From Dysidea avara (lineage: Eukaryota > Porifera > Demospongiae > Dictyoceratida > Dysideidae): a stretch of 64,000 nt of DNA. The translations under genes were made by a program, and so were the position numbers. The DNA lies in NCBI RefSeq assembly GCF_963678975.1, contig NC_089272.1:46892032-46956031 (forward strand). Direction: 5' to 3'. The notes beneath the pieces were generated by a model. That model saw nothing but the letters and a program-made list of their open reading frames with translations, ran no database searches and was not told the DNA's origin. Positions 8,895 to 62,859 of this stretch are shown here, one piece after another. The stretch's first letter is position 1; each line of letters opens with the position of its first letter.

Positions 8895-9175
8895 TCATTA
8901 CATTCAGTGTAACACTATCATCGGTCATTACTGGTGGACTACTGTTGATCACCACCTCACACTGGTACTCTCTACCATCATCAGTTGTGCTCAATAGTGA
9001 GATAGTGTAAGTGTCTGTATACGATACTGAGTTCTCTGTTGTGGAGCTAACATTGATCAAGTTCTCTGCCATCACTACTTCATACCTCTCACAGTAGTCA
9101 CAATGCAGTCCAGTGTTAGTGACTGATTAATCAATTGAGTACTGGGAGCAGTGGCAGTCATACTGGGAATGGGTG
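8895..9175 (-). pseudogene. Decayed Ig-domain exon (type A, copy 3)
   Basis: The minus strand starts after an AG at 9176 with an Ig N-terminal half (QSLTLDCIVTTVRG, holding the first Ig cysteine). The frame is lost through a deletion of about 37 bp relative to the intact copy at 20314-20673. The C-terminal half (STTDDGREYQCEVVINS...VTLNVM, with the Y-x-C of an Ig F strand) is open in another frame. Phase-1 borders match the other copies. It is the last recognisable member of the A-B-A-B-A exon series. Confidence 0.7.
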
Positions 9176-9220
9176 CTATTTTCTGTATAAGCAAATACAC
9201 ATACATGTATAATTACTCAC

Positions 9221-9333
9221 TAGCAAGTTTTCCCAGTACAAATGACTCCGTTCCATTAGCTCCTAGTATCACCACATTACATGTATATAATTCCATTATC
9301 TTTCTCCATCAGGTAGGTAAACTGGATATAATA
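9221..9333 (-). pseudogene. C-terminal half of a type-B Ig exon split by a 10-kb transposon
   Basis: The minus strand matches the 3' half of the type-B exon at 19946-20261 (the MMEGDNGTYMCN region) but is out of frame. It ends at a GTGAGT donor (9220-9215). Homology stops exactly at the CACTG terminus at 9334 and resumes at 19332, so the exon was cut by that insertion. Confidence 0.7.
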
Positions 9334-9350
9334 CACTGTAAAAACTGCAA

Positions 9351-9381
9351 GGTAGAAATAACCACAATGGTAAAAACTACC
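9351..9381. promoter_or_regulatory. Left subterminal 13-mer motifs
   Basis: GGTAGAAATAACC (9351-9363) and GGTAAAAACTACC (9369-9381) fit the pattern GGT-N7-ACC that is abundant at the right end. In CACTA elements short subterminal repeats bind the transposase; that role is inferred here. Confidence 0.55.
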
Positions 9382-9608
9382 TAGATAATATATGGTTAAT
9401 GCAACATTAAGTGAGTTAAATCTACTTTGTTGGATATATTTAACTATTTGAGTAATTTCAACCCATACTTAGTAGAAATAACTTTCAAACAGATTGGTTG
9501 TTTATCCTTCTTATAACTTAGGTACATTTGACTGTGTAAATAGGTTAAAACAAACTACAAAAATGTCAAAATAACCAAATTAAAAGTTATGTTCATATGA
9601 TAGTTAGG

Positions 9609-12600
9609 TTAACTAAAAATCAAATGTTTCATGGTTATGTAAGTTTCAGATCTTCCATCAAAGAGTTTGTGCCCATGAAGTACAAAAGGACTTAAAAGAT
9701 CTTGAAGACACACAATCGACATATTTGTGGTGTCACTGATGACATAAGAATGAAAATGATCGTCAAAGTAAATAGTCTGACAATGGTACACATGTAGCAG
9801 TAACAAATCACCCCCAACAACGTAGACATCAATTAAATGACCAAACAAGGGATCAGTTCCATCTGTCCCTATTATAACATAGCAATTGTTATTGCAATAG
9901 TTTATACTGTTTTTCTTAACCCACTTAGGATGGAAAACAGTGGCATCGTTGCTTATTGAAGGTATGGCTCGCTGGATGATGCTTCCTAGTTGGTATGGCT
10001 GTTGTCCAATTGTACTAGGGCTACTGCCCGGACCACACTCAAAGCAAGACTGAAGCATGTTATCAGAAGCCAACTGATAACACATCCATCGCTGATGTCG
10101 ACTTGCTAATGTGTAAGCAATATTCTTAAAGTTCCCCAAATGAGAAGCCTTTTTAAACAAGCTAAGTTTAGCTTCATGCCGCATAGTCCAATACCTGGTC
10201 ATTGGTCCGAGTGCAACAATTTGGTCAGGATAATGAACAAGAAAATGAAACTTGGGTGTAATCATTGAACTTGAATGTAATGACTTGAAAAGAGAATGAT
10301 GCTCCGCAATCAGTAGTTTTAGGACAGCACAATATCCCTTGGGTACAACAGGAGAAAACACAATATCAAAAATTTTTAGCAGTAAAAGAAAACACTGCCA
10401 GTGTTCATCGCCTTCAGGAACACAATCTCCCATTATCAAAGGGATAATTTGACAAAGAAGTAATGTTTGGGCAGCCGATAAATGAAATTTTTTATCATTA
10501 GACCCCAGCAATTCTCTAGTTATTATTCCTGGCCTGTCCATCTCATTTTTGCCATAATCAAAATTCTTAATACGGTGATTATATTCAGCTACAGTAATAT
10601 ATTTCTCATTCACACAATGTTTAACCAGTAGCTTGACCTCAAGTTGAGCAACACCTTCTAGGATATCATGCATAGCATCATGTGGTAAACCACCATCAAA
10701 CATGGAAAAATTTATTGCACACATCAACTTACTACAACGATTGATTCCGTATGTTTTAGAGTAATGATCTTTTAGATCTCCTTCAGCTGCATCCAACTCA
10801 TCACATTGTCTCTTGTGTATTTCAGCAGTTCGTTGACAAAAATCACTTGACAAAAACTTGTCCTTATATGATGTAGTTTTGACCATACAAGTACGACAAA
10901 ATCTATGTGAAAAAGAAAAAGACTCCTTGAATCCTCCCAAAAGATTACTAGCTAGATTATCAGCCAGAAAACACATTAAACCTCCTTTAAAGTTGCGCTG
11001 ATGGCCACTGATGTTAACATTAATACCATGCGTAGTTAACGTATTCAAATCTTTTATAAATGGTTCAAGAATAGTGTCAATACCATATTTCTGAATTACA
11101 GGATGTGTTGCACAAGCAACTAAATTAATGCTCCTTAATGTAGATCGAAATTTAGGTGGAATGTTACCGAGAGTGAATAAAATGATGCCTAATTTATGTT
11201 TCTTGGTATGTGTGCCTAGGGGGTTACAAACTTCAAGCTCATAAAAGTAGGCAATTACTTGAAGTGCAAGTGGATCATTTGAAAATAATGGGTGATTGCA
11301 AGCTAATTCTCCATCACAAAAATCTTCAAGTTTATCATCTGATCTCCTGTGAGGATTATCAATGAATTCCAACAGACTGGAATCTCCCAGTAGTCTTTCA
11401 AGCGTCTTAAAAATAGGAATATATTGAAAAGAGTCGCATTGTTCTACTAGCGATCTCTTAGTTCCTGAAAACCTTGCAGCATAAAAAGGTTCACCAACTA
11501 AAATCTCCTCTGGTTCCTATAGTAAAATAACAGATTGGTGTACGTTCATTCACCGTCCTTAAAACTTTATGTTTATAAGTGAATTTACCAAAATACTAAT
11601 GCATTTACCATAGTAATCTTAGTTACTGCTTCAACAGAGTATTATGTACTAGTTCAAACTTACCACTAAGCCAAGATCTTCTACACAACACTTCTCTTGT
11701 TTATATCTTGTTTCCAAGCCAACAAAAGGATCGGCTAAGTCTTTAAACACACTGTCAATTTGTGTATCATCTATTCCAAGTGAAGCAAGCTTAGCACGAA
11801 TACCACTGTGAAGAATTTGCACTGTGTGGGAAAAAACAGTCTTTGACCCTTCCATAACATCATCGATCGCTGTCTGAGACAAACGATGGTTTTCTTTTAA
11901 TTTCAACAAATAAAGGGCGATGGCTTTCTTTTGACGAATCGCATCAATGCCTAGCAAATGCTCCAGATCTGGATTGAAATCTTCATTTCCTATATACAAT
12001 GGTATTTAATTAATGATTCATTAGAATGTGATGCCTTTATTAAAGCAATTGGGATTAGTTACTGCATCACAAGTTGCATGAGTGCTGCTAAGTATTCACA
12101 AAAGTTGGTTTTGCCACAAGGGATCATTAAATCCACTAGCTACTGGAACAGTAAACTATATGATGTGATCATCTTTACGACCCACTTTTATAACTCTATG
12201 ACAGTATAAAGCAATAGTTGCAATGCATATGTACTCCACTATTAACTTTGACACAATTAATGTACTGTACAGCAAGCACAAATTATAATATATGTGCATT
12301 GTGTGTACACTATCGCAGGAACCATATTAGACCACCGTTACTGCATGGGAGACTGACATACAGTGTATAGCTACTATATACACAAACCTTGTTGGAAAGC
12401 GTCATCGTGAAAATTGAAAGAGGATATCTCAGGTTCATCGGAACAATTCAACTGTTGCGATGCTCTATGAACTCGAGACTGAATTATGCCGGAATCTTTA
12501 TGCTTTTTGTAGATATGTTGATAGAGAGCTGAATATGACTTGGAAGTATTACTGCAACCACCGATTCCACACACAACTGAAAAGCGTGGATCACTGGAAT

Positions 12601-12715
12601 GAACTAGTCGTAGGTGACTTAAAACTAGTCGTATATTAAGTGCCTGGAAAACACAAAGGAGGCACTTAAACCTTGCATATTGCCCGCTGGTACCGGCGCT
12701 AGAACTACTCGCCAT
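9609..12715 (-). CDS. Transposase-like protein with two C2H2 fingers (853 aa, 3 exons)
   Basis: Exons on the minus strand are 12715-12388, 11989-11664 and 11516-9609. Phases match (1 then 0), the donors are AAG|GTTTGT and GTG|GTAAGT, and no stop interrupts the 853 codons. The N-terminus (MASSSSAG) is followed by two C2H2 zinc fingers (C18, C21, H34, H39; C49, C54, H67, H72), probably for DNA binding. The long third exon has a C-x2-C pair (FCRTCMV) and conserved-looking acidic/His motifs (GGLPHDAMHDILEGVAQLE; TPKFHFLVHYP; RYWTMRHEAKLSLFKKASH). The HD-H-D-x2-EG motif resembles Tnp2-type DDE transposases known from CACTA elements; the family call is from motif memory and not an alignment. It lies divergent to the SAM gene within shared inverted repeats. 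Full-length open frame suggests recent or continuing activity. Confidence 0.75.
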
Positions 12716-12825
12716 CTGGAGTTTCTATCGGTAACACGACAATCATCACCACCGCTCTCAGGTAACTATAGGCTACCATGCACACGTGATAGCTAAAAAA
12801 ATTGGCGGTGTAACTTGGCGCTCAT
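12716..12825. promoter_or_regulatory. Bidirectional intergenic region between transposase and SAM genes
   Basis: Only 110 bp separate the two divergent ATGs. It contains an E-box (CACGTG near 12783) and TTGGCGG / TTGGCGC sequences resembling E2F sites. A shared promoter is inferred from position; no TATA box is obvious. Confidence 0.4.
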
Positions 12826-15800
12826 ATGGTGTTTGCCGCCTTTTTTGGTTTAGTGCTTTCAAGTTTGGTAGATTTGTTCAAGCTTGGTGGCCTCGTTGGT
12901 AGCTCAATAATGTCCGAGACGATGTCGTCCACTGACGTTGACCAGCTTCAGAGCGAGATTCCGAACGAACTCAACGAAAGTATGTCAGTTGACGAACTTG
13001 TGTTTTACCTGAACGTAAACCAAGGCATTCCGGAGTCTTTTTGTGAAATTCTGAAAGGTACGTAACTAGCTAGCTACTAAAGGTTAACTCATTTGGCACA
13101 CAGCGAGGAACGGCGTAGCTGCAGACTATGTCTGTCTAGTTGAAGTGACAACAGCAGTTCTAAGCTTAGTCAAAACTTACTAGCAGCCCTGTTGGGTGCC
13201 CCGGCTGTACTCTCCAGGTCTCATTAACGGACTGGATTGCCTAAAAACATTGTACAGTACCAGGTCTTGTCACATAGCTTTAAAAATTGTTCACACAACT
13301 TGCCATTTTTCACGGCAAGTGTCTTCCACTTTGTCAGTATACATGTAGCTTGTTGATGTGTACAGCATTATACAGCAATGTGATTTTTTATTTTTTTTGT
13401 AGAGAATTACATTGATGGTAAAGAATTCTTACAGTTGAGTCAGCAGGACTTAAAGGAAATGATACCTGCCATAGGCATTGTAAAGAAGCTGTTGAGGCTT
13501 ATTTCAAAGGTATTTTAGGTGTATGTAGTAGCCGTCTTATTTATAGGTATATTTTTAAATTTATTTATTAATGTTTTACAGTACAAGTATTCACTGAAAG
13601 CCATAAAATTAATTACAGTATCGGAAAAAAGAAACAAACTATATTCCAGTGTAAAGCCATACTTAAGTTACCTAATTATTGCATCTGTGACTGGTCTCAT
13701 GGGCTAGGCTTGAAACAGACTCTCAACAACTAGACAATGGCATGCAGAGAATGCTTTAATTGAGGTATGCAGGGTTTTTACTCTGGTAAGACACCTTGCC
13801 ACAAACTTTGACACATAGATTGCATACTGGATTCCTAACAAGTTTAAGATTTCAGTCACATGGGCCATTGTCTAAACAGCTAAGACATGCATTGCTAGGA
13901 TTCTCCCTCAGGAATGATGTAATAATCAGCCTCGGCTCGCATCAGTGATTATTCTTTGGGTTATTTATCCACTGAAGAATCCTAGCACTGCATGTCTTAC
14001 CTATACTAAACCAGGAATTATCTGGTTCTTCTAAAGCTGGAGAGACTATTAACTTACAATTTTTGTATAAATCAAAAAGATTGCATGTGCACTAATTTAT
14101 TAGAATATTTGCAAAGCACATGTAATAGTGGGTGATACATGGCTATTCTCAGTGTTAAATTTTTAGCTATAACCAATATCGTCTTCACCAGGGGAGATTT
14201 CAAGATGTTCTAATAGAGCAGTCCAATACTCTTATAGGAAAATCATTGCACTACCATGTATTTCACAACCACTTAGCAAGATCTTGAGAATTAGCACTGA
14301 CCCGTACTCTGTATTTGCAATAAACGGTACTCATGTATGATAATTTTATGTGTTTAGGCATCCCACGTAGCTACGTATATACATTGTGAGTTGAGGCTGT
14401 ATTTGATTGCTTGAAGTTTAATTGTTGACATAATATTATGTATGTAGTGTTCATGAAAAGTTTGCAGTAATTGTAAATATGATTTTTATATAGGATGATA
14501 TTCCTGCTTTGTCATCTGTTGATACGTACAGTCCAACTCCATGTAGTGATCAAGGTTCGACATGTTCAACACAGTCTGTTGCTTCGTGTACATCAGGAAG
14601 TCTGTCCGCAAGCAGTTTTGAAATACCTTCTCACTGGAGACCAGAGACGGATGCCTGTATTAAGAGAAAGGAGCTAACACGAGAAAGTCGGAATGATATT
14701 GTTAGAACCTTGGTTACTCTTGCAATTTCTAAAGTGGGTTCGAAGCCATCCAGAAGCAACTGTGAGCAGGTTGCCAGACTCCTTATCCTTAAATATCCAT
14801 ATATGAAGGATGATATAGGTGATGGCTATGTAAGTTATGTTATGCAATTGTACACATATTAAAGAGTATATAATTTGTACATTTAAATAGCAATAACTGT
14901 CTATTTTTAATTTTTCCTATCCTGAGTGCTGTGTTTTCCATACAGCACGAATTTGTGGTGCTTTAATTAATACTTGGATGGTTTTGCATGGGAGGAACAA
15001 TGGGTATAAATACTCGTGCATATTGTATGCACTCATTCAGAGATAAAACAGTTGTTTACCACATATCTATGGAATAACTGCCATATTAACAAAACAACAC
15101 ACATTTTGTCATTGTATGGCCAATGGAGTACAACTGCCGCCGTTGATCCTCCCGTGCAAAGTACACAATATGGTAGTGATTTTTGTAACTTCACGTGTGC
15201 AATCTAAGTTGCTATAGTGCATTAAATTCTGGTATTTTCTAGCAATGCATAGCATTTGCCACATGGTTATATTCAGCTGAACACTGGTGGAATGATTACT
15301 AGATGATGATGTTTTGTCCTCCAAGTTTCCATCCACTATATTTGTACTTGTATTTCGTTTTTTGTAATTAGTTTGTGTACGTTTTTGTATGGAAGAACAG
15401 CTATACCGAATATTGGAGCTAAAATAATAAGCAAGAATACAAGTACTGTGGACTGTATACATGTACTGCAGATTTACGCTACAGTGGATTGGTTGCTTCT
15501 TGCAACATTGGAGAGTAAAATGCATAGAGCATGGTATGGCTTCTTACGTGGCAATTAGCCAACTGATACAGAAATTTTGAACCAATCCGATATATTCCGA
15601 TATGTTGAATCTAAACACCGATACTGATCTGATATACCGATATAAATTTAGAAACCAAATGGAGATGTCAAATTAAACTATATTTATGCACTTATAACCA
15701 CTGTAAGATCACTGGCAATGCTTCGTTGCCTATGGTGGTGTGGCCTCTATTATGTGGCCCAGACAACAAATATTTTAATGGATACTCCTGCTAAGATTAC

Positions 15801-18581
15801 TCTCCATTTTAATGGCTGGTTGTTCTAGGTTGTATTCTCTGGTTCATTCCATGGTTGCTTTTAAAACTCACTAATTTGATTGTTGATTGTATGATTGGTA
15901 AACGTTATAACAATAAAACAGTAGCCATGTGTGTGCACTTAGATGGCTTCTCGTAGCAAAGTGTTTTGCAATAAGCAAGAAAGTCTCTGTTTCCCAGTCT
16001 TGTTAGCTGTATTACATTGCATAGTCAGTGCACACTGTCTGTAAGACAGCCCAGTTGTACTGTATATCGGTATATCGTATCGGTTTTGGCAGTAATATTG
16101 ATCCCTACCGATATTGACAAAAGTCTCCGTACCAGCAACCGATATGATATCGGTGTATCAGTACACCCCTACTAGAAACACAATTTTAATAGTAAGAACT
16201 TGGTACTTCGGCCATGTACAGTTAAATCTTTAGCATATCTCATGCTTATTTTGACAATTTTCTGAAATTTGATGGCATCTTTTAAAATTATATTATATAT
16301 ACTTCTTGTATTTGTATGATGTATGAATTTGCTCTTATGTGAAAGTTTTATTGCTGCAGACTTCATGGGTGGACAAAATGATTGAAAGAATCCGAAATTT
16401 AATCAAACTGGACAGAAAGAGAGGAGCTTCCATTGATCAATCACCTGCTCCAAAAAGAAGTAATAACAAGGACAAACTTCAAAGAAGGTACCCACTAACT
16501 CAGAACTCACCTATTGTGGATTTGGAGACTTTTGAAGAACACAACAAGGCTATGGTGGAAGAAATGAAAAATCGTACTCGTGACCGGGTATTGCTTCCAT
16601 TAATGAAAACCACTTTTCAGAATCGATGGGTTTATGTACGGAAAGATGCCACCAGTGTTAAGTCTATCATTACTGAATATCCATGCCTCAAATTTCCAGC
16701 AATTGTAAGCATATACAGTAATATTGTTAAATGTTTATGTTGTTATTGTATACAGTTGGAGCAAGAATTAGCTATGATAACAGGGAGAGCAAATGTAAAA
16801 GATTCTTTTCTGAGGGAATGGGCTCGATATGTTCCAGCTATCATTGCATTGGGCAAAAAAAGCTCTAAGAAGAACATCAAAGAAGTGCTGAAGACTGCTC
16901 GTGAAGAAGGTACAGTGTGACTGCTATTATTGCATATCATAGAAGTCTGTATTTAAAGTAATATCTTATGACCATGTCTGTTGGTAGTGATCCACCAATA
17001 AGAGATTTAACCGATTATCTGATACTTGAATTACATACTGGCCGATACCGATAACCGATCCGATGTTTATATTTACTCAATTTCTACATGTTTTATGCAA
17101 TATTGCAATATATTTCCTTAATTTCTGTCTTGATTTCTTAAATATAATGTTGTTAGGGTCAGCAAAATTAATCTGCCAAAACATCTACTAATAATTACCG
17201 ATATTTCCAAAATTTGGCCGATAAATCGATTTCTGATGCTTTACCGATTAATCGGTGCATCACTATCTGTTGGTACAATTCAAAGTCTCATTTCTTGTTG
17301 AAGTCATGTTGTTTTACAGAGTTTTAATAGGTACTTGGTACATGAGGTTTAAAACACAATTTGCAAATAGTATACAGTGAATGTGTTTGAAGTCTAAATA
17401 AAATTACTCAGAAGGTGTCAAACTATTTTTATGGCCAGCTAGTAGGTCTCTTTGTGGATTGTAAGATCTCAGAGGAGGGTGGACAAGCGCACGTGAGTGC
17501 ATACATTTGTATTAAAAGTATAACCAAGCCTTCAGCAAAGTTTAAATGGGTACCATTCGAAAGTGTGCTTCACGTTTAGTATATTTAGCCGGTCTTCCCC
17601 ACTCTTCCCCACTATTCCCAACACGTAAATCGCCCTTGAATTTATAGAAGATCACGTGTGCAGTAAGTTTGTCGGTGGAATCGATGCGTTGCACTCTAGC
17701 GACACCTTATAAGCTTCTATTCGAGCCCAACAATCGTTGAAGAAGGTATTATGATATACAATATGCCTCCTATGCTCGCTCCCATGGAATTAAAGAAAGG
17801 AAAGCGGACGCCGCTAGCGTGTCCTCATGGAGAATCAAGCAGGAAATAGGACATCTTTGTACTCATTTTCTTCCGTTTGTCACAAGAAGCACAAGATAAA
17901 TTAGTGTGGCTGTTGCTAAACAGGTTTTATCACTTCATTTTAGTCTTGGTATTAGAAATATTCAATTAACGGTAATAATTTTCAATAGCGCTTATATCGT
18001 GTCCACCCTCCTCTGGTAAGATCTCTTTGTCTTCCAATGGTCAAAGCACACTATGCATGCCATGTTCTAAAGCACATGACCATTGTCATTAATGTATTTT
18101 TATTTCTACTTTCAGATGGTGATGATATTTTAGCTCTGAGCATACTAGTGGAGTTGTTAGCTCCGAAAAATGCCAAAGAGACGATCAAATTTGTTTACAC
18201 GGAGTATCAAGTATGGTTCTATGAATAATGAAACTGCAACTATGATATTTATTGTTTCTTGTGTAGATATCCACAAGAGTAGAGGATGCAGCAAAGTCAC
18301 AGACATCATATGCAGCACCACGAATAGGAGGGTACCTTGGTGTAGGTCCAGGTGACCAATTTTTTGTTTTTGTGGAAAACATGACTCTCTGTCAGTGTTC
18401 AACATTGCCAGATGCCATCTTTCTTACGTTTTCAGCATACTATTCATTTTACCTTGAGTACTCAACCCAAACCAAAAGCTTTATGTGGTTTCTTCAGGAT
18501 TATATCTTCTCCTATCCTGATAGTACTGACCACAGTGCATCATATTTGGCAGTCACGTCAGATATTAAACGTAACCTGTGA
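12826..18581 (+). CDS. SAM-domain protein carried by the transposon (7 exons)
   Basis: Exons are 12826-13057, 13403-13509, 14494-14829, 16360-16704, 16756-16909, 18116-18210 and 18267-18581. All have GT-AG borders and matching phases (1,0,0,0,1,0), giving 527 codons to TGA. A second in-frame ATG at 12910 (MSETMSSTDVDQL) gives 499 codons and may be the true start, because the first 28 residues are unusually hydrophobic. Residues about 50-113 form a SAM domain (SVDELVFYL...GIPESFCEILKENYIDGKEF...LKEMIPAIGIVKKLLRLI) split by intron 1. A Ser/Thr-rich linker, a basic stretch (KRKELTRESRNDIVRTLV) and a C-terminal domain (GPGDQFFVFVENM...IFLTFSAYYSFYLEYS) follow. The whole resembles the multicopy SAMD3-like proteins of animals (from memory). 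Placement inside the transposon ends suggests an accessory transposition protein. Confidence 0.8.
13881..13999. mobile_element. 119-bp foldback MITE in intron 2 of the SAM gene
   Basis: TAAGACATGCATTGCTAGGA at 13881 pairs with its near-perfect inverse ending at 13999. An inner AATAATCA/TGATTATT pair sits around a CTCGGCTCGCATC centre. Confidence 0.65.
15556..16171. mobile_element. hAT-like MITE relic in intron 3 of the SAM gene
   Basis: ACTGATAC near the left end and GTATCAGT near the right end are inverted. Both subtermini are full of CCGATAT/ATATCGG. The right end, read in reverse, begins TAGGGGTGTACTGATAC, typical of hAT MITEs. The left end is degenerate and no TSD was found. Confidence 0.5.
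16985..17265. mobile_element. hAT MITE with 8-bp TSD in intron 5 of the SAM gene
   Basis: A 281-bp element with ends TAGTGATCCACC / GGTGCATCACTA and internal CCGAT-type repeats. It is flanked by the exact 8-bp duplication TCTGTTGG (16977-16984 and 17266-17273). Confidence 0.85.
17470..18015. mobile_element. 546-bp element with 9-bp TSD in intron 5 of the SAM gene
   Basis: The inverted ends CAGAGGAGGGTGGACA / TGTCCACCCTCCTCTG are perfect over 16 bp. They are flanked by GTAAGATCT at 17461-17469 and 18016-18024. A 9-bp duplication is typical of Mutator-like elements; the interior has no long frame. Confidence 0.85.
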
Positions 18582-19014
18582 ACATAAATATATCTATTGA
18601 CAAACAAGACTGTACCCATATATAACATCTTTACAGGCTGTACTAGTTATGTTACGTATATGCCATGTTGTAAAAGTCTATATATTTGTTCATGATTACT
18701 GTTACTAAGAGATAATATTATGTTGTCACTATGTAAACAATTACAAGACTGTTGTTTAATCCTTGATGACGATTTGTGACTTGTATACTATGTGTGATAA
18801 ATACTAAAGGATTTATAATATGCTACCAATTCACAGAAAGCAAACAGTGGTGAGGCAGGTTATCATCTAGGTACAAACAACAACAACACAACCACTTGTA
18901 ACAGTCATTATTACCAACCATATGGTATAAGTAACTTTCTGGATGGTTATCATAGCTAATTATAAGGAAGGTAAATAGTTCATTCTGTAAGTAGTAACTA
19001 ACCACTGGTATTGT

Positions 19015-19314
19015 GGTTAACACCACCACTAACTGCAGGCTTTTTAACCTAATACTGAAGTGGTTACTTTAATTCCTGCTATAGTTAAAGCAACACCTGG
19101 TGGTTATTATTACCTACCTTGATGGAGGTACTTTCAACCCACACAAAGTTGTTATAACATTTTGGATCTTGGTTGATGTTACCAACCTTAGGTTAAAGTT
19201 ACCTCTTCACATAGATGGTTCCTATAACCTTTAAAATAAATGGTTGCTTCTACCTAAAATTTTGGTTACCTGAGTTTCTGGTAAAACTACCCATTTTTTT
19301 GGGTTAAATCTACC
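19015..19314. promoter_or_regulatory. Right subterminal cluster of GGT-N7-ACC 13-mers
   Basis: Matches begin at 19015, 19102, 19127, 19171, 19191, 19217, 19242 and 19302 (for example GGTTGATGTTACC, GGTTAAAGTTACC, GGTTCCTATAACC). A 12-bp variant lies at 19280. This is far denser than chance and lies just inside the right inverted repeat. Confidence 0.7.
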
Positions 19315-19331
19315 TTTCAGTTTTTACAGTG

Positions 19332-19535
19332 TAGTTACCACTACTGCTGGTTGGGTTGATGGTCACTCTATTATCATTAAATTTTGTAGTAGTCTCCTCC
19401 AGGTCCCATCCAACTGATCATTACTGAATTGGACTCCACTAACTGTACTCACTGTACAATTTACGTTTAGGGAATCACCCACCATTGCTGATCGTATGGT
19501 ATCAATTGGTGATATGGTAATGTTAAACGGTGGGA
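19332..19535 (-). pseudogene. N-terminal half of the transposon-split type-B Ig exon
   Basis: The minus strand begins after a CTTAG acceptor (19540-19536) with FNITISPIDTIRSAMVGDSL, the same start as the type-B exon at 19946-20261. It has a frameshift near GVQFSND and breaks off at the transposon end. The rest of the exon is at 9221-9333. Confidence 0.7.
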
Positions 19536-19584
19536 CTAAGAAAAGAAACACAATTATGATAATTACAGTTACAAAATTACTAAC

Positions 19585-19894
19585 CCATCAAATCCAGTGT
19601 AACAACATCAAAAGCACTTATTGATGGAAAACAACTAATGAACACCTCACAATAGTATTCTGTATGATCATCAGTTGTGTTTAATTGTGGGATAGTATGT
19701 GTGACTGTGTATACCGCTGGGTCATCAGTTGGAGAGACAGCCCTCATTTCATCAAGTCCTCTACCGCCAATACTCCATATAATATCCACTCTACTGGTGA
19801 TGCCTCTCACAGTAGTCACACTACACTCCAGTTTTACTGACTGACCAACTATCTAAGTGTTGGGGGGTAGTGACAGTCACATTGGGAAAGGGTA
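19585..19894 (-). pseudogene. Decayed Ig-domain exon (type A, copy 2)
   Basis: It starts with VPFPNVTVTTP and ends with DVVTLDLM before a GTTAGT donor. It contains a premature TAG in the first half and a length (310 bp) that breaks the phase-1/phase-1 rule. The C-terminal part (GITSRVDIIWS...TTDDHTEYYCEVFIS) stays open. Confidence 0.7.
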
Positions 19895-19945
19895 CTGTAT
19901 TAAGCAAGAGCATGAACATATACTCTCAAAAGATATTCAACTTAC

Positions 19946-20261
19946 CAGTAAGTATTGCTAGCATAACTGACTCTGACTCAATTGTAGTTAGTGTTGATAC
20001 ATTACACATGTATGTACCATTATCTCCTTCCATCATGTACACAAACTGAAGACCACTACTGTAATTATTACCAGTGTCACTGGTTGGTCACTCTACTATC
20101 ATTTGTAACAGTGTTTCTTCCAAGTCCCATCCAACTGATCATTACTGAACTGGACTCCACTCCACTAACTGTACTCACTATACACTGGATCATTTGCGGA
20201 TCACCCACCATAGCTCCTTGTATTGGATCAGATGGTGATATGGTAACTGTAGGAGGAGGAA
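19946..20261 (-). pseudogene. Ig-domain exon (type B, copy 1) with frameshift
   Basis: It opens with VPPPTVTISPSDPIQGAMVG and shows an Ig core (C in MIQCIVSTVSG, W in MISWMGLG, then Y-M-C in GDNGTYMCN). One frameshift falls after DSRVT. The length of 316 bp (not a multiple of 3) confirms it. Borders are ACAG acceptor and CTG|GTAAGT donor. Confidence 0.7.
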
Positions 20262-20313
20262 CTGTGGAGGAAATGTATACATAGCAAAGGAACATTGAAC
20301 AACACACACCAAC

Positions 20314-20673
20314 CCATCACATTCAGTGTAACACCATCAATAGCCAATACTGGTGGACTAGTGTTGATCACCACCACACACTGGTAATCTCTACCATCAT
20401 CAGTTGGCCTCATTTGTGAGATTTTGTAAGTGTCTGTGTACACTAATGAGTTGTCTATTGTGGAGCTAACATTGATTCCCTCCATCATCTCAAATTCTGT
20501 ACCATCACTACTCCATATAATATCCACTCTACTGGTGACTGTACCATCACTACTCCATATAATATCCACTCTACTGGTGATACCTCTCACAGTAGTCACA
20601 CTACACTCCAGTGGTAGTGATTGACCAACTATCTGAGTGTGAGAGGCAGTGACATTCACAATGGGAGAGGGTA
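20314..20673 (-). CDS. Intact Ig-like domain exon (type A, copy 1)
   Basis: The minus-strand exon is open throughout, with phase 1 at both ends, as usual for extracellular Ig modules. The core cysteine is in LPLECSVTTVRG, the tryptophan in DIIWSSDG and the F-strand motif is DDGRDYQCVVVI. N-glycosylation sequons (NVTA, NVSS) fit a secreted or membrane protein. A 42-bp tandem duplication inserts 14 residues (a repeat of SRVDIIWSSDG) around 20497-20580. It may belong to a partly decayed cell-surface receptor or adhesion gene; no signal-peptide or transmembrane exon was found nearby. Confidence 0.65.
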
Positions 20674-25892: not shown

Positions 25893-28800
25893 TCATTTAT
25901 TAACAGTAATGAGTAGTTGAGTTTCACAGGAATGTTTTGATCTAAATCCAAACTGGTTGTCTGAAAGAATATTGTGGTCCTCCAAATGCTTCATAATTTG
26001 ACTCACGATGATATGCTCCATTGTTTTACAAACTACTGAGGTGAGTGAGATAGGATGGTAGTTGCCTGGGTGAGCTTTGGAACCTTTTTTAAATATTGGG
26101 GTGACATAGGCATGCTTCCATTGTAATGGAACTTCACCAGATTCTAGTGATTGTTTGAAAATATGAGTTAGAATGGGAGATAATTCGGCAGCTGTGGCCT
26201 TCAGTACATACGGATGCAAGGAGTCAGGTCCTGGGGATTTGGATGTGTCACAGGTACTTAACAAGTTGTAGACTCCTTGTTCGGTAATCTCAAATGTAGG
26301 TAAAGATGGAAATAAGGATGGACCTTTGTCAGGAATGTTACTATTATCTTCGGATGTAAAGACAGACTGAAAGTGTTGATTGAGGGTGTCTGCTTTTTCC
26401 ACAGGATTGGTTATGATATGACCATTTATAGGATTTATTAATGTACTAATACCATTGTTTTCTTGTTTTCATGACTTGATGTAGTGCCATAAAGACTTTT
26501 TGTTACTGTCTGGTGATGAAGTTAGGTTTGTCAGGTAGGATTTGTGTTGGTACTTTAGTTTATGATCTATTTCTTTTTGCAATGATTTATATTCATTCCA
26601 GTCACTATCTCGACAATAACGCTTTGCTCTTCTATAAACTCTTTGCTTTTTACGTATGAGTCGTTTTAAAGCAGAAGACAGCCAGGGAAGGTGAATTCTT
26701 GTACTTAATTTCTTGGTAGGAGTATGAGTGTTTATTATTTCTTGTAAATTTTGTAAGAAGAAGGACCAATTTTCATCTAAGCTTTGGGGTGATGCTTGAT
26801 TTATTTCAAAGTAATCATGTGACAAGTCTGATAATTCCTGTCTTATTTTTTCCCGGTCAGCTAGCTTGTAAAGGTAAACAGTTCTGGGATGTTGTTTGAT
26901 TACACGTTTAGGAATCTTGATGGATACTAAAACAGCGTCGTGGTCACTCAAGCCCGGAAGTGGTTCACATGATATCACAGAATTAGGATTAGTAGTAAAC
27001 AATAAGTCTAAAACATTTTGAGCTCTTGTAGGGAAGGTGACTAACTGAGACAGTTGGTAGCTGTGTGATAAGTCAATAAGTTTTTCACAAAAGTGACATG
27101 ATACATAGGAATTTATTAGTGTACTGTTTCCCAGTCAATACCTGGACAATTAAAGTCACCTCCAAGAATGATTTGAGTGTGGGGATACTTTTGCTTAATC
27201 GTGTCTATGGAAGACTGCAAGTTGTCAAGTATTGTATCACTTGAGTGAGGAGGACAGTAAAAGGAGCCAACGATAAAGTCATTGTTCTTGTCAAGATGAA
27301 CGTGAGCCCGCACTATTTCAATAGTTGAATTGTCATTAATTTGTGTACATGGTATAGAGCTCTTTATGGAAATAAACACACCACCACCAGAAGTGTTTCT
27401 GTCTTTTCTGTATGTTTGATAATTATTTGGGAAAACCTCAGAGTTTAGAATAGATTCATTCAAATGTGATTCTGTCCCTATAATGATGTCAATTGCATAG
27501 GTAACCAGAAAAACTTCAAGTTGAGTTCGTTTGTTAGTAACACTACAGAAATTTACAATAGACAGTTTCAAATCACTTAATACATTATTTGAGTTTGGGT
27601 TATTAGTAGAGTTATTAAAAACCTGTGAATTTGAGTCAGGATTTGAGTTAGTTATAGTGGAAACAGGGAGTCAGGATGACTCCATGCTTGTGGCAGAGGT
27701 ATTATTAAGTGGCTGTGCTGATACAGTTACATACTCTAATTTGTTACCATCTGTACTCACTTTGCAGTGAAGCTTGTTGTTGAGGTATAAGGAATCATTT
27801 CTTATTTTGATGTATCTCCATTCGGTACCATTGCAATTAGGGATCTCCTTTCCTTCAATAATAAGCGTTCCTTTTGACGCTCCTGGGGAGTTAGATCAGG
27901 TTTTATGTAGATTGGAGCTTCAAGCTTAGACTTAGAACTTAGGATGTCAATTGCTGTGTTTGAACGAAGGAACTTCACCAGAAGGGTCTGGGACGCTCAT
28001 TCTTTTGGTCATACTTGCCGAGACGATACAAATCTTTTATATCACTAGGTTCAATGTCAATATCAGTTGCAGACAGAGCCTCCATCACGTTTTCCATGTC
28101 CTTTTTGATTCGGAGTTGTCTGTTGGTATTTAATTTAATTTAATTTAATTTAATAATTGCTTTACAGAATTGGAATTACATACAGTAGAGGCTATAGTGA
28201 TTACAGAGACATACAATTCTGAAGGACTACCAGTGTCCTGCACTGGTAGCCTAGAGCACTAACTACTTAACTACAAAAACTATACATGCATACATTTATA
28301 TAATAGTTACAAATAATTATAGTTGGTTGGTGCAGGAGTCTTGGAGCAGCGGGTACAAGGACACAGGTAATGAAAAGTACAGGGGGTATTATCAAAGTTA
28401 GCTAAAAAATGATTCCATAAAAATGCTTTCAACTTTGGTTTGATTACATCTAGTGATTGAGATAGGTCAATTATTGGTAAAGAGTTCCATAATCTTGGTA
28501 AACGATAAAAATATGAGTTCATGATATTTTGGGGATTTTCTGCTACACCATACACAACGATGTTGAATTTCCTATCAATGTTGGTGGCATTTTGATAGAC
28601 AGTGTTGAAACTTTGTCAACAACTGGAGCACGAACAATTTGAGTAGAAGTCTGCTGTGGTTGATTAACAAGGTCTAGTTTGCGTTTAAGATCATTTAGAG
28701 AAGTTTGAAGTGTATAGTAATGGTCGACATTAAGCTGTCTATTTCTGCCTTCTGCGCTTGGATCTCACAGTAGCTATAGACAAAAGAACGTGTGTTCTTC

Positions 28801-32810: not shown

Positions 32811-34968
32811 GACAAAAATTGCTTGGCAGTACAAGACTGTCAAGCTAGGCCGCAGGCCTTTGAGAGTGCCCATATCTTGTTGTTCTCCATAAATCATCAA
32901 GATTCTTCTTAAACAATGCCACGGTTGGTGCAGAAATAACATCTGCTGGAAGAGAATTCCACAAATTAACTACTCTGTTGGTGAAAAAATTATGCCTCAC
33001 TAGCAGCCGAGATCGAAATTTAAATAGTTTACGGTGGTGACCTCTGGTGGTATCCGTATTATTCAAAGTGAAAAATGAGGTAGGGTTGATGTCATAGTAA
33101 CCATTCAATATCTTGTAGGTCTCAATTAGATCTCCCCTTTGACGTCTACAATACAGTGAATATAAACCAAGTCTCTCTAGACGAGTTTCGTATGGTAAAT
33201 CAAATAAACTAGGTAATAACTTGGTGGCACGTCTCTGTACTTTCTCTAGGAGATCAATATCTTTCGCCAAGTAAGGGCTCCAGACCTGGATACAATACTC
33301 CAAGTGAGGTCTGACATACATTTTGTACAAAAAGTCAACAAGTCAACAGAAAAAAGTTTGAAGGACCTTCTTAGCAAACCAAGAACTTGCATAGCTTTTG
33401 CTGCAGCCTTACGACACTGTAGAGATGGTTTCAAGTCTTCAGTGCACCAAATACCAAGATCTTTTTCTTCTTGCACTTCTGTGATTTCAAAGGGTAAGTT
33501 GGTGGAACTGTCCAGCATAGAGTAGGTGAACGGAGCAGTGTTACCAATCCGCATCAGCTTACATTTAGCTATATTGAACCGAAGCAACCATGTGTGAGAC
33601 CACTGCAACAATCGGTCAACATCACTTTGCAGCCTAAGGTGGTCGTCAAAGCTCCGAATAACAGAATAAATTTTTGTATCATCAGCAAACATTCTTACAT
33701 TACTTTCAATAAGGTCTGGGATGTCATTAACATATAATATAAACAACAAGGGCCCTAAAACAGACCCCTGGGGGACTCCACTCACCACCTGAGCCCAAGA
33801 CGACAAGTGACCATTCAACACAACTCTCTGGAAGCGGTTGGAAAGAAAGTTTGATAGCCACAAAGACAAATTACCACGAACACCAAATGCTTCCAACTTG
33901 GAGATCAATCTATGATGAGGTACAGAATCGAATGCCTTACTGTAGTCTAGAAATATGACATCAATGCCAAATCCTTGATCCAAAGCAGAAGTCCACTCTT
34001 CAAAAGTTGATAACAAGTTAGTAAAACAGGACTTCCTGTTAACAAAACCGTGTTGCTCACCATTAAGTATGCCTTGCCCATCAAGAAAGGTTACCAATTC
34101 AGAATGTATAATAGATTCCAAGATCTTAACAACTAAAGATGTCAAACTAATTGGCCTGTAGTTGGAAGCTTGGTTTCTTTGACCCTTTTTAAAAACAGGA
34201 ACAACGTGTGCCTGTTTCCACTCATCAGGGAGGACACCACTAGATAAGGATTGAGAATACAGAATGGTTAAAGGTACATAAAGTGTGTTAGCACAAGCTT
34301 TTAAGACATAAGAATGTATACCATCTGGGCCAGGAGCTTTGTTAACCTTGAGCTCAAGTAGCTTCTGAAGAACTGTTGACTCTGTTATGTCAATATCACA
34401 AATACTATCTTCAGACACAAAGGAGGGAACAGGCATACTAGATAAATTTTCTTTGGTAAATGTTGACTCAAAGAATTGGTTTAGGGTTTCAGTCACCTCC
34501 TGGTCATCAGCAGTGAGAGAACCATCACTCTTTATCAATGGGCCAATACTAGGTCTAATCTTCTGTTTAGACTTAATGTAACTGTACAGTACTTTTGGAT
34601 TAGAACGAAGCTTGTCTAACAGGGACCGTTCATAAGAATTTCTAGCAGATCGTATCTTACATTTGACATCATTGCGTTTTGCTGCATAGGTGGCATAATC
34701 AGATCTTGATTTGGAATGTTTATATTTGGTAAAGGAAAGTTGCTTAGCTTTAATGGCTTTAGAGAGGTCTTTGGACCACCAAGGAGTAGGTTTATTATTT
34801 TTAGGAATGGAAGTCGGGATGTATTTAGCTATGGCATCTTGAACTGTCACCTTAAACACATGCCAATCATCATGAACATTGCCAGACAGAACTTCAGACC
34901 AGTTGATACTCCCAAAATAATCATTCATGGCCTCGTAATTACCTTTTCTGTAATTGTACTCAGGGACA
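32771..34968 (-). pseudogene. 5'-truncated CR1/L2-like LINE with nearly complete RT
   Basis: The minus-strand frame from 34928 reads through the RT domain (NKAPGPDGIHSYVLKA, NYRPISLTSLVVKILE, FLDYSKAFDSVPHHRLI, SGVPQGSVLGPLLFILYVND, MFADDTKIY). A single frameshift near 33330 lies in a T run. The C-terminal region (YVRPHLEYCIQVWSPYLAKD...VVNLWNSLPADVISAP) then continues to the stop at 32845. The tail is (AAT)n at 32771-32808. The endonuclease and ORF1 are missing. The FADD catalytic motif is kept, so this is a fairly young copy. Confidence 0.9.
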
Positions 34969-35131
34969 CTTTATAAAGGGGAAACATATTACCCGGGGAA
35001 ACACATATCACTATGACTTGTAGGTCGCTAGCGAGTTAGTGATATATGTTCGGGGAAACACAGATCCCTAGGGATATGTGTGCGGGAAACACGTTACCCG
35101 GGGAAACATATATCACTGTGACACCGGACCG

Positions 35132-52639: not shown

Positions 52640-54660
52640 GGAATTCAGTTACAAACAAGTCACCCTGTAGTCAGATCAGCCAGAAGAAGGTGCCTAATAG
52701 AGAGTTCAGCTACAAAGAAACCATCATGTAGAGAGTTCAGCTCAAACAAATTGCCCTGTAGAGAGATCAGCTAGAAGAAGTTACCTTGTAGAGAGTTCAG
52801 TTACAAAGAAACAATCATGCAAAGTGCTCAGCTACAAACAAATCACCCAGTAGAAAGTTCCGCTATGAACAGATCACACTGTAGAGAGTTCAGTTAGAAG
52901 CAAGTCATGTTGTAGAGAGATCAGCTAGAAGAAGTAACCTTGTAGAGAGTTCAGCTACAAAGAAACCACCATGTAAGAGAGTTCAGCTGCAAACAAATCA
53001 CCTGTAGAGAGTTCAGCAGGAACAAGTCACCCTGTACAGAGATCAGCTAGAAACAAGTCACCCTGTAGAGAATTCAGCTACAAACAAATCACCCTGTAGA
53101 AAGATCAGGTAGAAGAAGTTACCTTGTAGAGAGTTCAGCTGCAAACAAATCCCCTGTAGAGAGTTCAGCTAGAAACAAGTCACCCTGTAGAGAGATCAGC
53201 TAGAAACAAGTCACCCTGTAGAGAATTCAGCTAGAAGAAGTCGCATTGTAGAGAGTTCAGCTACAAAGAAACTACCATGTTGAGAGTTCAGCTGCAAACA
53301 AATCACCCTGTAGAGAACTCAGCTACAAACAAATCGCCCTGTAGAAAGATTAGCTAGAAGAAGTTACCTTGTAGGGAGTTCAGCTACGAACAGATCACCC
53401 TGTAGAAAGTTCAGCTACAAAGAAATCATCCTGTCGAGAGTTCAGCTATGCAAAGATCACCCTGTAGAGAGTTCAGCTAGAAGAAGTCACCTTTTAGAGA
53501 GTTCAGCTACAAAGCAACTACCATGTAGAGAGTTCAGCTACAAAAAAAATCAATCACTCTGTAGAGAGTTCAGCTAGAAGAAGTCACCTTGTAGAGAGTT
53601 CAGCTGCAAACAAATCACCTGTAGAGAGTTCAGCTAGAAACAAGTCACCCTGTAGAGAGATCAGCTAGAAAACAAGTCACCTTGTAGAGAGTTCAGCTAG
53701 AAGAAGTCACATTGTAGAGAATTCAGCTACAAAGAAACTATCATGTAGAGAGTTCAGCTGCAAACAAATCACCCTGTAGAAAGTTCAGCTATGAACAGAT
53801 CACCCTGCAGAGAGATCAGCTAGAAACAAGTCACCCTGTAGAGAGTTCAGCTATGAACAGATCACCCTGTTGAGAGTTCAGTTAGAAACAAGTCATCCTG
53901 TAGAGAGATCACCTAGAAGTATCACCTTGTAGAGAGTTCAGCTACAAACAAATCACCTGTAGGGGATTTCAGCTACAAACAAATCACCCTGTAGAGAGTT
54001 CAGCTACAAAGAAATCATCATGTAGAGAGTTCAGCTGCAAACAAATCACCCAGTAGAAAAATCAGCTATGAACAGATCACCCTGTTGAGAGTTCAGTTAG
54101 AAACAAGTCATCCTGTAGAGAGATCACCTAGAAGTATCACCTTGTACAGAGTTCAGCTACAAACAAATCACCTGTAGGGATTTCAGCTACAAACAAATCA
54201 CCCTGTAGAGAGTTCAGCTACAAAGAAATCATCATGTAGAGAGTTCAGCTACAAACAAATCATCCTGTAGAGAGTACAGCTATGAAAAGATTACCCTGTA
54301 GAGAGTTCAGCTATAAGAAGTCACCTTTTAGAGAGTTCAGCTACAAAGCAACCACCATGTAGAGAGTTCAGCTGCAAACAAATCACCCTGTAGAGAATTC
54401 AGCTACTGTAGAGAGACCAGCTAGAAACAAATCACCCTGTAGACAGATCAGCTAGAAGAAGTTGCCTTGTAGAGAGTTCAGCTGCAAACAAATCACCCTG
54501 TAGAGAATTCAACTACAAACAGATAACCCTGCAGAGAGTTCAGCTAGAGTCAAGTCACCCTGTAGAGAGAATCCAGTAAAGAGTTCATCTACGTACAAGC
54601 ATATCACCCTGTAGAGAGTTCAGCTACATTTCAAGTCACCCAGTAGAGAGATCGGCTGCA
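52640..54660 (+). repeat. Large 31-bp satellite array
   Basis: About 65 tandem units, each beginning TGTAGAGAGTTCAGCTACAA and ending AATCACCC, with variants (GAGATCAGCTAGAAG, CATGTAGAG). Higher-order blocks repeat (53850-54050 versus 54060-54240). The left flank (52546-52640) and right flank (54800-55100) are shared, in inverse orientation, with the array at 62860-63620. Confidence 0.95.
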
Positions 54661-54819
54661 AATTATCCTGTGGGGATTAATTGACATGTAATAAATATAT
54701 GCAAGAGTTCATAATATAATGAACTCTTGATATATGCATTATATATATAATGTGTACATTAACTGATAAAATCAGAAAGTATTTATAAAATCTGCTTCAT
54801 CTTTTTCTGTTTCCTGTGG

Positions 54820-55100
54820 TAAAGAAAAATATATAGGTTAAAAAGCCCCAAAGCTGCAGGCCATAGGCCGGCTTTGGAGTATACAAATACAAAAAGAAGT
54901 GAAATCTAATCAAAAACAACCAAGCTGTAAAAAATCGGCACTAAATTCACCTGAATTGTCGTTATTAAAATTTTTACCATTAACCTACCATCACAGCCAT
55001 TTCTTGGCCGCCACCTTGGATTTCACATCTTTTTTCACCATAGCCTTTTCAAGGGCCGCACTCCTTTTTTTACAGCTTGGCTGTTTTTGATTAGATTATA
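54820..55100. mobile_element. Foldback head of the satellite-bearing family (copy 2)
   Basis: It contains GCCCCAAAGCTGCAGGCC, AAACAACCAAGCTGTAAAAA, CCACCTTGGATTTCACATC and ACAGCTTGGCTGTTTTTGA, the same order as at 62530-62820. One arm is shortened. The 63-codon frame here is repeat-derived. Confidence 0.75.
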
Positions 55101-55384
55101 ATACATGCTTCATTTTAAACTTGAATAATGTTGATACATGTAAAAATTTGCATGTGAATATCTCACTTGCACATCACAAAGTGTATTAGTGAGATAAAGC
55201 AAGAATCAAACCCACTACTGTAGTTAATGGTTAATGCTCAAGTTGTTTGTCTGTAGTACTGACCAGTATATAGAGTAGTGTAATTTTCCTCTGTATTTAT
55301 TATTGTATTCAATGTGCCATAGAGAATGTACGTAGGAATTATACACATACAAGTTGAAGGATAAATTAGGAATAAAGTTGGATT
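55101..55384. other. No supported gene
   Basis: Nothing was recognised. Confidence 0.4.
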
Positions 55385-55545
55385 AGGGATCTAAAAGTTA
55401 AAGAAAAGTAGTGAAACAAGAGAAGTTATACCTACAGTGTACATACACTGGGGACATTTAATCCCTATGTAAGTCCTGCAAGTATGTAAATAGGATACTC
55501 CCTCTTGTTTCATTACTTTTAATACTGTATATTCCCTTTTCACTA
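55385..55545. mobile_element. Foldback MITE related to 24886-25060
   Basis: GTTGGATTAGGGATCTAAAA at the left and CTACTTTTTTGATCCCTTAT at the right are inverse-like. The centre holds GGGGACATTTAATCCCTAT, as in the other copy. Confidence 0.5.
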
Positions 55546-55917
55546 CTTTTTTGATCCCTTATTGTAATTATTACTAAAAAGCAAAGTGCCATTTCACTTC
55601 ATTTTCATCTATGTTCAGCCCACTACACAGCATTACAAACAAAGAGCAGTACAAAAAGATCTCTTCAATCAGTCCAGCCACTACAGAAATAATGGATGAT
55701 TTTCATTCAAGGAAAATCAGTATAATATATGCGGATTATGTGCTGCTGTGAATTGACACCTTGCAATGTCAGAGAACACAAAGAAGGACAATGGAAAGTC
55801 CATGATGCACGCATTGTGCATACTGCAGTATGCCAAAAGGCATCAGTCAGAGCAAAGTGACATCTAACAGTTAACAAATCAAGCCCATAGCCTTAGAGGT
55901 TGTCGAGTTATGCCACA

Positions 55918-56021
<104 letters not shown>

Positions 56022-56039
56022 CACAACAATTTCCAAGTA

Positions 56040-56325
56040 TACAGTATATCCTTCATGACCCTCCAACAGCCTACATATCTTAGTCCACTGAGATGCAAAG
56101 GATAGTAGTACAACAATTAAGGTACCTACAGTATAACAGGTTTTCCAGAAGACGATATAATATAGCCATTTTCACCTATCAAATGTATAGTTACATATCA
56201 GTAGATAATTGTAAGACAACGTCCTGAATTTTTAAGTGCAAGTAGACAAAGAAAAGCAAAGAAAAGTGCATTTTGTCTCTAAACTCTAATACAGATAGCA
56301 AAATATTATTGATAACATTACTGGG
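56040..56325 (+). repeat. Dispersed 285-bp repeat, copy 1
   Basis: It matches 61096-61380 in direct orientation (CTTAGTCCACTGAGATGCAA, TTTTCCAGAAGAC, AAAAGTGCATTTTGTCTCTA) and partly 62345-62498 in inverse orientation. Confidence 0.8.
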
Positions 56326-56560
56326 AAGCATACAACTTTTAAGATTTTATTAAACTTAGCTACACATTCGAGCACTAAAAATTTATGCATAAGTAGTGTG
56401 CATGAAAAGTTATTCTAAGATACATGTACATATAATGTCTGAGTTTTATGAGTGACTTATGAATAATAGGGTAAAGATATGTACAGTATAAGTTATTGTT
56501 TTACTGCTCATCAACTGTATGTAGTATACTGAAGACTAACATTTTACATTTTGCATATAG

Positions 56561-56839
56561 CACCCAACCCACCTCAGAATATTTCAGCTTCAGCAGTCAA
56601 TTCTACTACAGCAGAGATCACCTGGAATCCACCCAGTATCACTAATGGGATCTTATGCTATTACACTGTAGTGTATGGTAGTGATGATGACATGGAGATG
56701 ATGAAAGTGAACTCTAGTGATGTGACTGTGTTGGTGTCAGGACTGAATCCCTTCACTAATTATACATTTTATGTGTTAGCAGTTACTGTAGCACCAAGTG
56801 AAGCTAGTAATAATATTACTGTATTGACTAATGAGACAG
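56561..56839 (+). CDS. Fibronectin III domain exon 1
   Basis: A 279-bp exon, phase 1 at both ends (ATATAG acceptor, ACAG|GTAGGT donor). It encodes one FN3 module: APNPPQNISAS, the core tryptophan in AEITWNPPS, the tyrosine in LNPFTNYTFYVLAVT, and several N-glycosylation sequons. The protein is expected to be extracellular (adhesion or receptor). It is nearly identical to the exon at 57829, showing a recent segmental duplication together with the intron. Confidence 0.9.
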
Positions 56840-57552
56840 GTAGGTGGAATTCCTGCCTACAGTACGCCCTGTATTTTGTTTGTTCATAATTGTACAGTAT
56901 GGTAGGACCATATAATAGAAATTGTCGAGGTTTGTGGTTTTACTCAATAGCATCACCCAAACATAACAGTTTGGCAGTATTGATTAAGCATAACTAAGCC
57001 CACAAATGTCTTCAGAGTGACCCAAATCCTTCCAGCAACTTTTTATTAACTGAATTTTCTACTTACTGCTTAACTAACTGGCCTTCAGCCACTATGGATA
57101 AGGGCTTGAGTTTCTTTACTGTTTGAGATCTCTTTTAGCTTGTGACATGCTAACTGCAGCAGCTAAAATATATTCATCATGGACTTACCTTTGTGTTCCT
57201 TTGTGTCCTATTTTTTTCTCTACTACCACATAAGTGTTGATTTGCAGTGGTAATGTATCACAGCATCAGCACTTTTACTTCTGTAGTGTGACTGGATTGA
57301 TTGTACAGACACTTCACTTTGTTTGTAATGCTGTATAATGTGTGGAATATAACTGATACAAAACAGAGCGACTTCTTCATGTTTATGTAATTGATAGGCA
57401 AGGTGATTTTATTAAGCTTAGCTACACATTCGAACACTAAAAATTTTTACATAATTATTATGTGGCATACATGAAAAGTTATTTTAAGATACGTACATGT
57501 ATGTATAATGGCTGAGTTTTATGGGCGACTTATTAATATTAGGGTAAAGATA

Positions 57553-57745
57553 CCATAATTCGCTTTTATTTCATGCAAAAAAAGTTCATGATTAAAATTT
57601 TCATGTAAAAAATACTTTCGTATGATTTATGTGAATGATTGCTCTATTAGAGTAGTTTGATCTTGTATAAAAAATTCGTGCATGAAATTTTCATACAAAT
57701 TTTGCATACGAAAATTATTTTACAATGAAAAAAAGCAGATTATGG
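57553..57745. mobile_element. 193-bp MITE with TA duplication, inserted after exon duplication
   Basis: CCATAATTCGCTTTT at the left and AAAAGCAGATTATGG at the right form TIRs and are flanked by TA. The paralogous intron copy at about 56470 (GGTAAAGATATGTACAG) lacks it, giving the empty site. It contains CTCTATTAGAG at 57642. Confidence 0.85.
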
Positions 57746-57828
57746 TATGAATAGTATAAGTTATTGTTTTACTGCTCATCAACTGTATGTAGTATACTGA
57801 AAACTAACATTTAACATTTTTCATATAG

Positions 57829-59244: not shown

Positions 59245-59292
59245 GTAAGTGTGTTATTCTGTTGATGCATTTCAATGTACTATTTTGATTAG

Positions 59293-59565: not shown

Positions 59566-59619
59566 GTAAAGTAGCTTTGTGTATTTACATAAAATATACA
59601 TCAGTAATCTGATTAGACT

Positions 59620-60172: not shown

Positions 60173-60180
60173 TTGGGTGA

Positions 60181-62498: not shown

Positions 62499-62499
62499 T

Positions 62500-62820: not shown

Positions 62821-62859
62821 CTATCATTTTTTTCTTTACCACAGAAAGAAGAAAAGATA

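Follow-up and report, generated by a model that had tools for sequence, protein, structure and literature searches.

Maize En/Spm transposons have CACTA ends, a 3-bp target-site duplication and subterminal repeat motifs at both ends, and their second protein, TnpA, is not known to be a SAM protein; to our knowledge, the second proteins of CACTA transposons are poorly known outside maize. Mirage elements duplicate 2 bp, and RAG2, the partner of RAG1, is a kelch/PHD protein and is not known to have a SAM domain. Here, we report on one copy of a two-gene transposon in the sponge Dysidea avara, located at positions 9334 to 19331 of a 64,000-nucleotide window (the whole stretch analyzed; NC_089272.1, positions 46,892,032 to 46,956,031), in which a transposase gene stands head to head with a gene for a predicted SAM-domain protein. 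It matches Mirage elements in its 2-bp duplication and En/Spm in its subterminal motifs, but differs from En/Spm in its ends (CACTG..CAGTG), its duplication size, the nature of its second protein and its two divergent genes, TnpA and TnpD coming from one spliced transcription unit. En/Spm likewise combines a transposase with a second protein, there required for transposition (PMC1636069, in the excerpt available). The same excerpt describes SmTRC1, an animal TRC element of the CACTA superfamily, which resembles the sponge element in its 2-bp direct repeat (7 of 14 copies) and in a further protein, distinct from the transposase, that is presumed to take the part of TnpA. Its transposase is of the Transposase_21 type, a profile that the sponge transposase matches below the cut-off; its ends, however, start CCC, and its extra proteins, not called SAM there, arise by alternative splicing and not from a divergent gene of their own. 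ESTA and fungal EnSpm/Plavaka elements (PMC12730594, also in excerpt) share a CMC-type clade, C(2)C and H(3-4)H motifs, mostly CA..TG ends, short duplications and, in some, an extra captured gene; ESTA duplicates TA, whereas the 2 bp vary in the sponge element, and the extra gene of the fungal elements encodes a TET/JBP dioxygenase and has moved among transposons that are not related to each other.

Comparison of copies strongly supports the view that the SAM gene belongs to the transposon, of which it looks like a functional component, as opposed to a host gene picked up by accident. The end pattern, allowing at most one mismatch, occurs 24 times in the 551-Mb genome searched, whose contig C1 holds the window (reversed, 0 times); 20 of these occurrences form 10 facing pairs, namely, the window copy and nine others, so that the search for further copies proposed in the original prediction succeeded. 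Both genes are found in the same head-to-head order in 11/11 family-1 copies (the 10 end-paired copies plus C11:20907576, whose right end is missing its final bases; the C12 copy lacks SAM exons 4 and 5), in a sister copy at C6:36903458 (75 to 88% identical by exon; all three transposase exons and SAM exons 2 to 5, with SAM exons 1, 6, and 7 and the right end not found) and in both complete elements of a second family described below, a fixed order across three divergence classes. Between the window and the sister copy, a single pair, Nei-Gojobori estimates were dS 0.697 and dN 0.095 for the transposase (ratio, 0.136; 808 codons) and dS 0.712 and dN 0.102 for the SAM gene (ratio, 0.143; 303 codons). 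The equal dS indicates that the two genes travelled together, and the low ratios that both were needed. Pooled pN/pS within family 1 was 0.72 and 1.12 for the two genes, as expected because copies decay after insertion. Co-occurrence across copies and families, with equal dS and constraint, rules out recent host capture of the SAM gene, and the proposal that it belongs to the transposon is well supported.

The inverted ends proposed for the element are real: the arms at 9332-9363 and 19302-19333 (flanking TA included) pair at 29 of 32 positions, compared with a best of 26 among 100 dinucleotide-preserving shuffles of the region, which rules out chance pairing. This test and the other genomic copies are the basis for calling the ends, not rank in a whole-window inverted-repeat scan. 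The features of the element are given below (exons from predicted gene models).

9332..9333, no strand: target-site duplication TA, left copy (perfect 2-bp duplication in 10/10 end-paired copies)
9334..9363, + strand: left terminal inverted repeat, CACTGTAAAAACTG followed by the first palindrome
9351..9381, no strand: two 13-bp palindromes GGTWNNNNNWACC, at 9351-9363 and 9369-9381
9609..11516, - strand: transposase exon 3, RAG1-like DDE core and BAH-like C-terminus (fold taken from P0005)
11241..11243, - strand: codon 310, TAT (Tyr) in place of the first catalytic Asp (homologue and copy comparison)
11664..11989, - strand: transposase exon 2
12388..12715, - strand: transposase exon 1, with a pair of C2H2-like zinc fingers (Pfam scores under the cut-offs)
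12910..13057, + strand: SAM gene exon 1 (upstream in-frame ATG at 12826)
13403..13509, + strand: SAM gene exon 2, encoding the latter half of the SAM domain
14494..14829, + strand: SAM gene exon 3, beginning of the basic helical region
16360..16704, + strand: SAM gene exon 4 (intron position common to P0127/P0129)
16756..16909, + strand: SAM gene exon 5
18116..18210, + strand: SAM gene exon 6
18267..18581, + strand: SAM gene exon 7 and stop
19102..19314, no strand: seven 13-bp palindromes, at 19102, 19127, 19171, 19191, 19217, 19242, and 19302
19302..19331, - strand: right terminal inverted repeat
19332..19333, no strand: target-site duplication TA, right copy

The two divergent multi-exon genes of the original prediction were recovered, all introns being GT-AG: a transposase gene of three exons with an uninterrupted reading frame of 853 codons (- strand) and a SAM gene of seven exons and 499 codons from the ATG at 12910 (+ strand), or 527 codons from the in-frame ATG at 12826. 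P0001, a predicted Dysidea avara protein (496 amino acids [aa]; cluster of 24 sequences), is 99% identical to the SAM protein, and its splice structure agrees with the gene model across junctions, the window being one codon shorter, although as a database prediction it may rest on the same assumptions. P0127 and P0129 read through an intron located at the SAM exon 3/4 junction. The genes had also been described as intact, which stands for the reading frames and fails for catalysis: residue 310 of the transposase is Asp in 78/78 homologues and 11/11 other genomic copies and Tyr only in the window copy (12 compared). Since the first catalytic Asp is thus replaced (D310Y), the window transposase is predicted to be intact in reading frame only, not in function. 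Among 79 sequences, C425 and C428 are present in 79/79, H497 in 72/79, and H501 in 78/79, and the Transposase_21 profile (PF02992) matches with an E value of 7.5e-4 (19.2 bits versus a cut-off of 28.6). The fold was read from P0005, 98% identical to the window transposase core (cluster of 53 sequences); it is RAG1-like, with a sequence identity to RAG1 of about 13%, and RAG1/RAG2, ProtoRAG, and Transib are among the nearest systems known. The transposase tail (9609 to about 10050, - strand; P0005 residues 441 to 573) has a BAH-like fold, at borderline strength, and a Pfam search of the tail gave the BAH domain no support; BAH domains are modules that read chromatin.

The element is a cut-and-paste transposon with CACTG ends and 2-bp duplications, and it falls in the CMC-type clade (EnSpm/CACTA-Mirage-Chapaev) on the evidence of its fold, motifs, end sequences, and size of duplication. 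The duplication is a perfect 2 bp in 10/10 end-paired copies (TA, CA, CT, TG, TG, TG, CA, TT, TA, and TA), and a 3-bp duplication was found in 0/10. A 3-bp or TA-only duplication is ruled out, and with it EnSpm/CACTA in the strict sense (0/10 with 3 bp) and ESTA (TA in only 3/10; the others CA [2], TG [3], CT, and TT). Animal TRC elements, which require CCC ends according to the excerpt of PMC1636069, were rejected on the CACTG ends, although the 2-bp duplication recalls them.

The second family came from a genome search with the diverged SAM protein P0003, which yielded at least 88 matched stretches. Of the SAM loci that belong neither to family 1 nor to the sister type, six were fetched, none among them matching the C-terminal region alone, and transposase sequence adjoins the SAM gene at four of the six. 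Two of these are complete family-2 elements, C3:32287407-32295620 (8,214 bp) and C4:13801053-13809193 (8,141 bp), which are 98% identical to each other, have CACTGAAAAAACAAA ends and duplications AG and TG, and carry the transposase head to head with the SAM gene; a matching 2-bp flank was required in the search for their ends, and at C3, where other inverted repeats scored equally high, the pair was chosen because C4 has the same CACTG ends. Compared with the window transposase, that of C3 shows 49% identity over exon 3 and 35% over exons 1 and 2. Between the gene and the left end lies a second transposase-core piece, 23 to 30% identical (C3:32287806-32288768 and C4:13801452-13802229), which at C3 reads as decayed. 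At C15:12580330-12582292, the locus of P0003, transposase exons 1 and 2 (54 to 58% identical) lie head to head upstream, and no transposase exon 3 was found within 7.5 kb; this locus (C15:12578925-12582292) may be either a copy with a deletion or a gene pair that the host has kept. At C14:11.32 Mb, SAM exons are accompanied by a piece of transposase that is out of place.

The subterminal motif clusters are also real. The exact motif GGTWNNNNNWACC is palindromic over 13 bp, has an invariant 5-bp core, and occurs nine times near the ends, never inside the element, and three times elsewhere in the window; this total of 12, against 3.04 expected, was matched in 0/100 shuffles. With one mismatch allowed, the counts are 16, 8, and 41, respectively, and confinement to the ends therefore holds for the exact form only. 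All 10 end-paired family-1 copies (7 to 9 palindromes each) and both family-2 copies (3 each) have the exact palindrome solely close to their ends. Because copies of one family inherited these sites from a common ancestor, what counts as independent evidence is the enrichment within the window itself and the recurrence in family 2. A TnpA-like accessory calls for several copies of a candidate binding motif near both ends, which the exact palindrome supplies. Its twofold symmetry suggests a dimer or oligomer as the putative binder.

Residues 40 to 80 of the SAM protein match Pfam SAM_1 with an E value of 8.4e-4, and the family-2 SAM protein with 2.2e-3, both below the curated cut-off; the top solved-structure match of the SAM-protein profile is the SAM domain of the Polycomb protein Sfmbt (PDB; E value, 0.0027). 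In the predicted structure, the SAM region has low confidence, residues 121 to 213 form a confident helical unit (ten-residue mean pLDDT, 73 to 89), and the remainder is poorly modelled. The SAM region is acidic (pI 4.3), and residues 121 to 300 are basic (pI 9.7 to 9.8). The C-terminal region alone matches several more loci (including C5:18571739, C15:1157476, and C14:7932397) at roughly 30 to 40% identity and may represent a wider family.

As a whole, these findings are best explained, with moderate confidence on our part, by a two-gene CMC transposon whose SAM protein acts as a transposase accessory. The transposase (two N-terminal zinc fingers, DDE core, and BAH-like tail) would cut and rejoin DNA, while the basic middle region of the SAM protein would bind the 13-bp palindromes or help to load the transposase there, and the SAM domain would oligomerize and so pair the two ends. 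End bridging or oligomerization is a plausible candidate role, in which the SAM protein would fill the place of maize TnpA using an unrelated protein.

Some observations lean against an accessory role, among them two that do so weakly, at C9 and at a pair of SAM-only loci. Copies C4:42938335, C7:35063750, and C11:11885462 have in common a 59-nt frame-breaking deletion in SAM exon 1 and occupy separate sites, each with its own 2-bp duplication, which means that copies without a working SAM gene have moved; they make up a predicted SAM-defective subfamily, whose movement is most simply attributed to SAM protein from other copies, and for this reason the SAM protein probably acts in trans. The window copy, too, should move only with proteins supplied from elsewhere because its first catalytic Asp is lost. 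At C9:5992229 (C9:5981300-5992251) lies a decayed, one-ended sister-type copy that shares 97.6% identity with the C6 copy across 2.85 kb. It has the transposase; its similarity to the C6 copy breaks off near the start of the transposase gene, before the SAM gene, and the next 2.7 kb yielded no SAM gene. This broken copy is the only one seen with the transposase alone, and it leaves our confidence unchanged because the break is on the side where the SAM gene would lie. The expectation that both genes always lie within the ends holds for every two-ended copy examined; ends enclosing only a transposase, with the SAM gene alone at a host locus, were seen in no copy with both ends. A similarly weak pointer comes from C14:1.7257 Mb and C6:29.02 Mb, where SAM-gene pieces have no transposase in the approximately 5 kb fetched.

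The linkage and constraint facts would be identical if the SAM protein were a selected transposon gene with a regulatory job, binding the subterminal repeats to keep promoters active or counter silencing, as reported for maize TnpA (PMC1636069, in excerpt). The Polycomb match of the SAM domain and the chromatin hint of the BAH-like tail point the same way, as do the TET/JBP genes of fungal relatives, thought to oppose methylation (excerpt of PMC12730594). However, the exact palindromes are concentrated at the two extremities of the element, away from the region of about 12.72 to 12.91 kb where the head-to-head genes start, and no enzyme domain was found in the SAM protein with Pfam and NCBIfam; we regard a regulator as unlikely, though a serious candidate. 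That the SAM protein is a cargo, selfish or protective toward the host cell (such as a factor offsetting the element's cost) and selected without a role in transposition, is quite improbable: cargo genes can stay under constraint, and the C-terminal region does match other loci, but dS and dN lie so close to those of the transposase that one shared cause, transposition, is simpler, and the same searches returned no known protective domain. That the SAM gene is a host-captured passenger without a role in transposition is very improbable, for although SAM domains are common in animal proteins, transposons do capture genes, and the SAM-broken and C9 copies would fit, the head-to-head pair is common to families whose transposases are only about half identical, the SAM gene has a dN/dS of 0.143, and, of the six outside loci, two hold entire two-gene elements and another two have fragments of the transposase alongside.

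This is an animal case of a second CACTA-type gene inherited and selected alongside a RAG1-fold transposase over deep divergence; the domain of the second protein, a predicted SAM, is unusual, and a candidate binding site is defined. How a relative of RAG1 might pair its ends with a partner other than RAG2 can now be tested directly, and sponge annotations can include transposon genes among their multicopy "uncharacterized" SAM-domain genes. It is conceivable, though we hold it only tentatively, that animals harbor a whole lineage of RAG1-fold transposons whose machinery consists of two proteins, one a zinc-finger/RAG1-core/BAH transposase and the other a SAM protein devoted to polymerizing on 13-bp palindromes to pair the ends, with head-to-head expression keeping both in step, and that many multicopy "SAM-domain" genes in animal annotations are transposon genes of this type. 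SAMD3-like genes of other animals, to which the original prediction extended the idea, may be further candidates; in a word-limited search, all hits bearing a species name came from Dysidea avara.

The four unpaired end-pattern matches are C11:20907576, two C6 sites, and C9:5992229. The second C6 site is identical to the first over the 1.7 kb compared, with SAM matches at equal offsets, and looks like a duplicated stretch, not a separate insertion, because the sameness extends into the flank. Read against the window exons, in-frame stops interrupt the transposase in 5/12 copies and the SAM gene in 2/12, and several others are gapped; differences among the 11 family-1 copies are mostly private, with seven variants common to the window and C13 only.

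The D. avara genome (575 Mb, chromosome level) is described as having many Ig-domain genes (PMC12909245, in excerpt). The element interrupts a host Ig exon, as predicted, with halves at 9104-9331 and 19334-19661; a paralogue at 19824-20390 aligns over the joined flanks (66% identity, small gaps only). The prediction needs a correction here, in that the exon itself carries several frameshifts, and the insertion site is for that reason probably a decaying or neutral Ig exon. Nested in a SAM-gene intron is a small element (17461-18024) whose inverted ends CAGAGGAGGGTGGACA match perfectly over 16 bp and whose duplication GTAAGATCT is 9 bp long, presumably as in Mutator-like elements. Away from the transposon, the whole-window scan found perfect inverted repeats of 32 nt plus, about 9 kb apart, at 54090-63485, and open frames at 25893-27670 and 32845-34970 (- strand) resemble, by eye, LINE-type endonuclease/reverse transcriptase.
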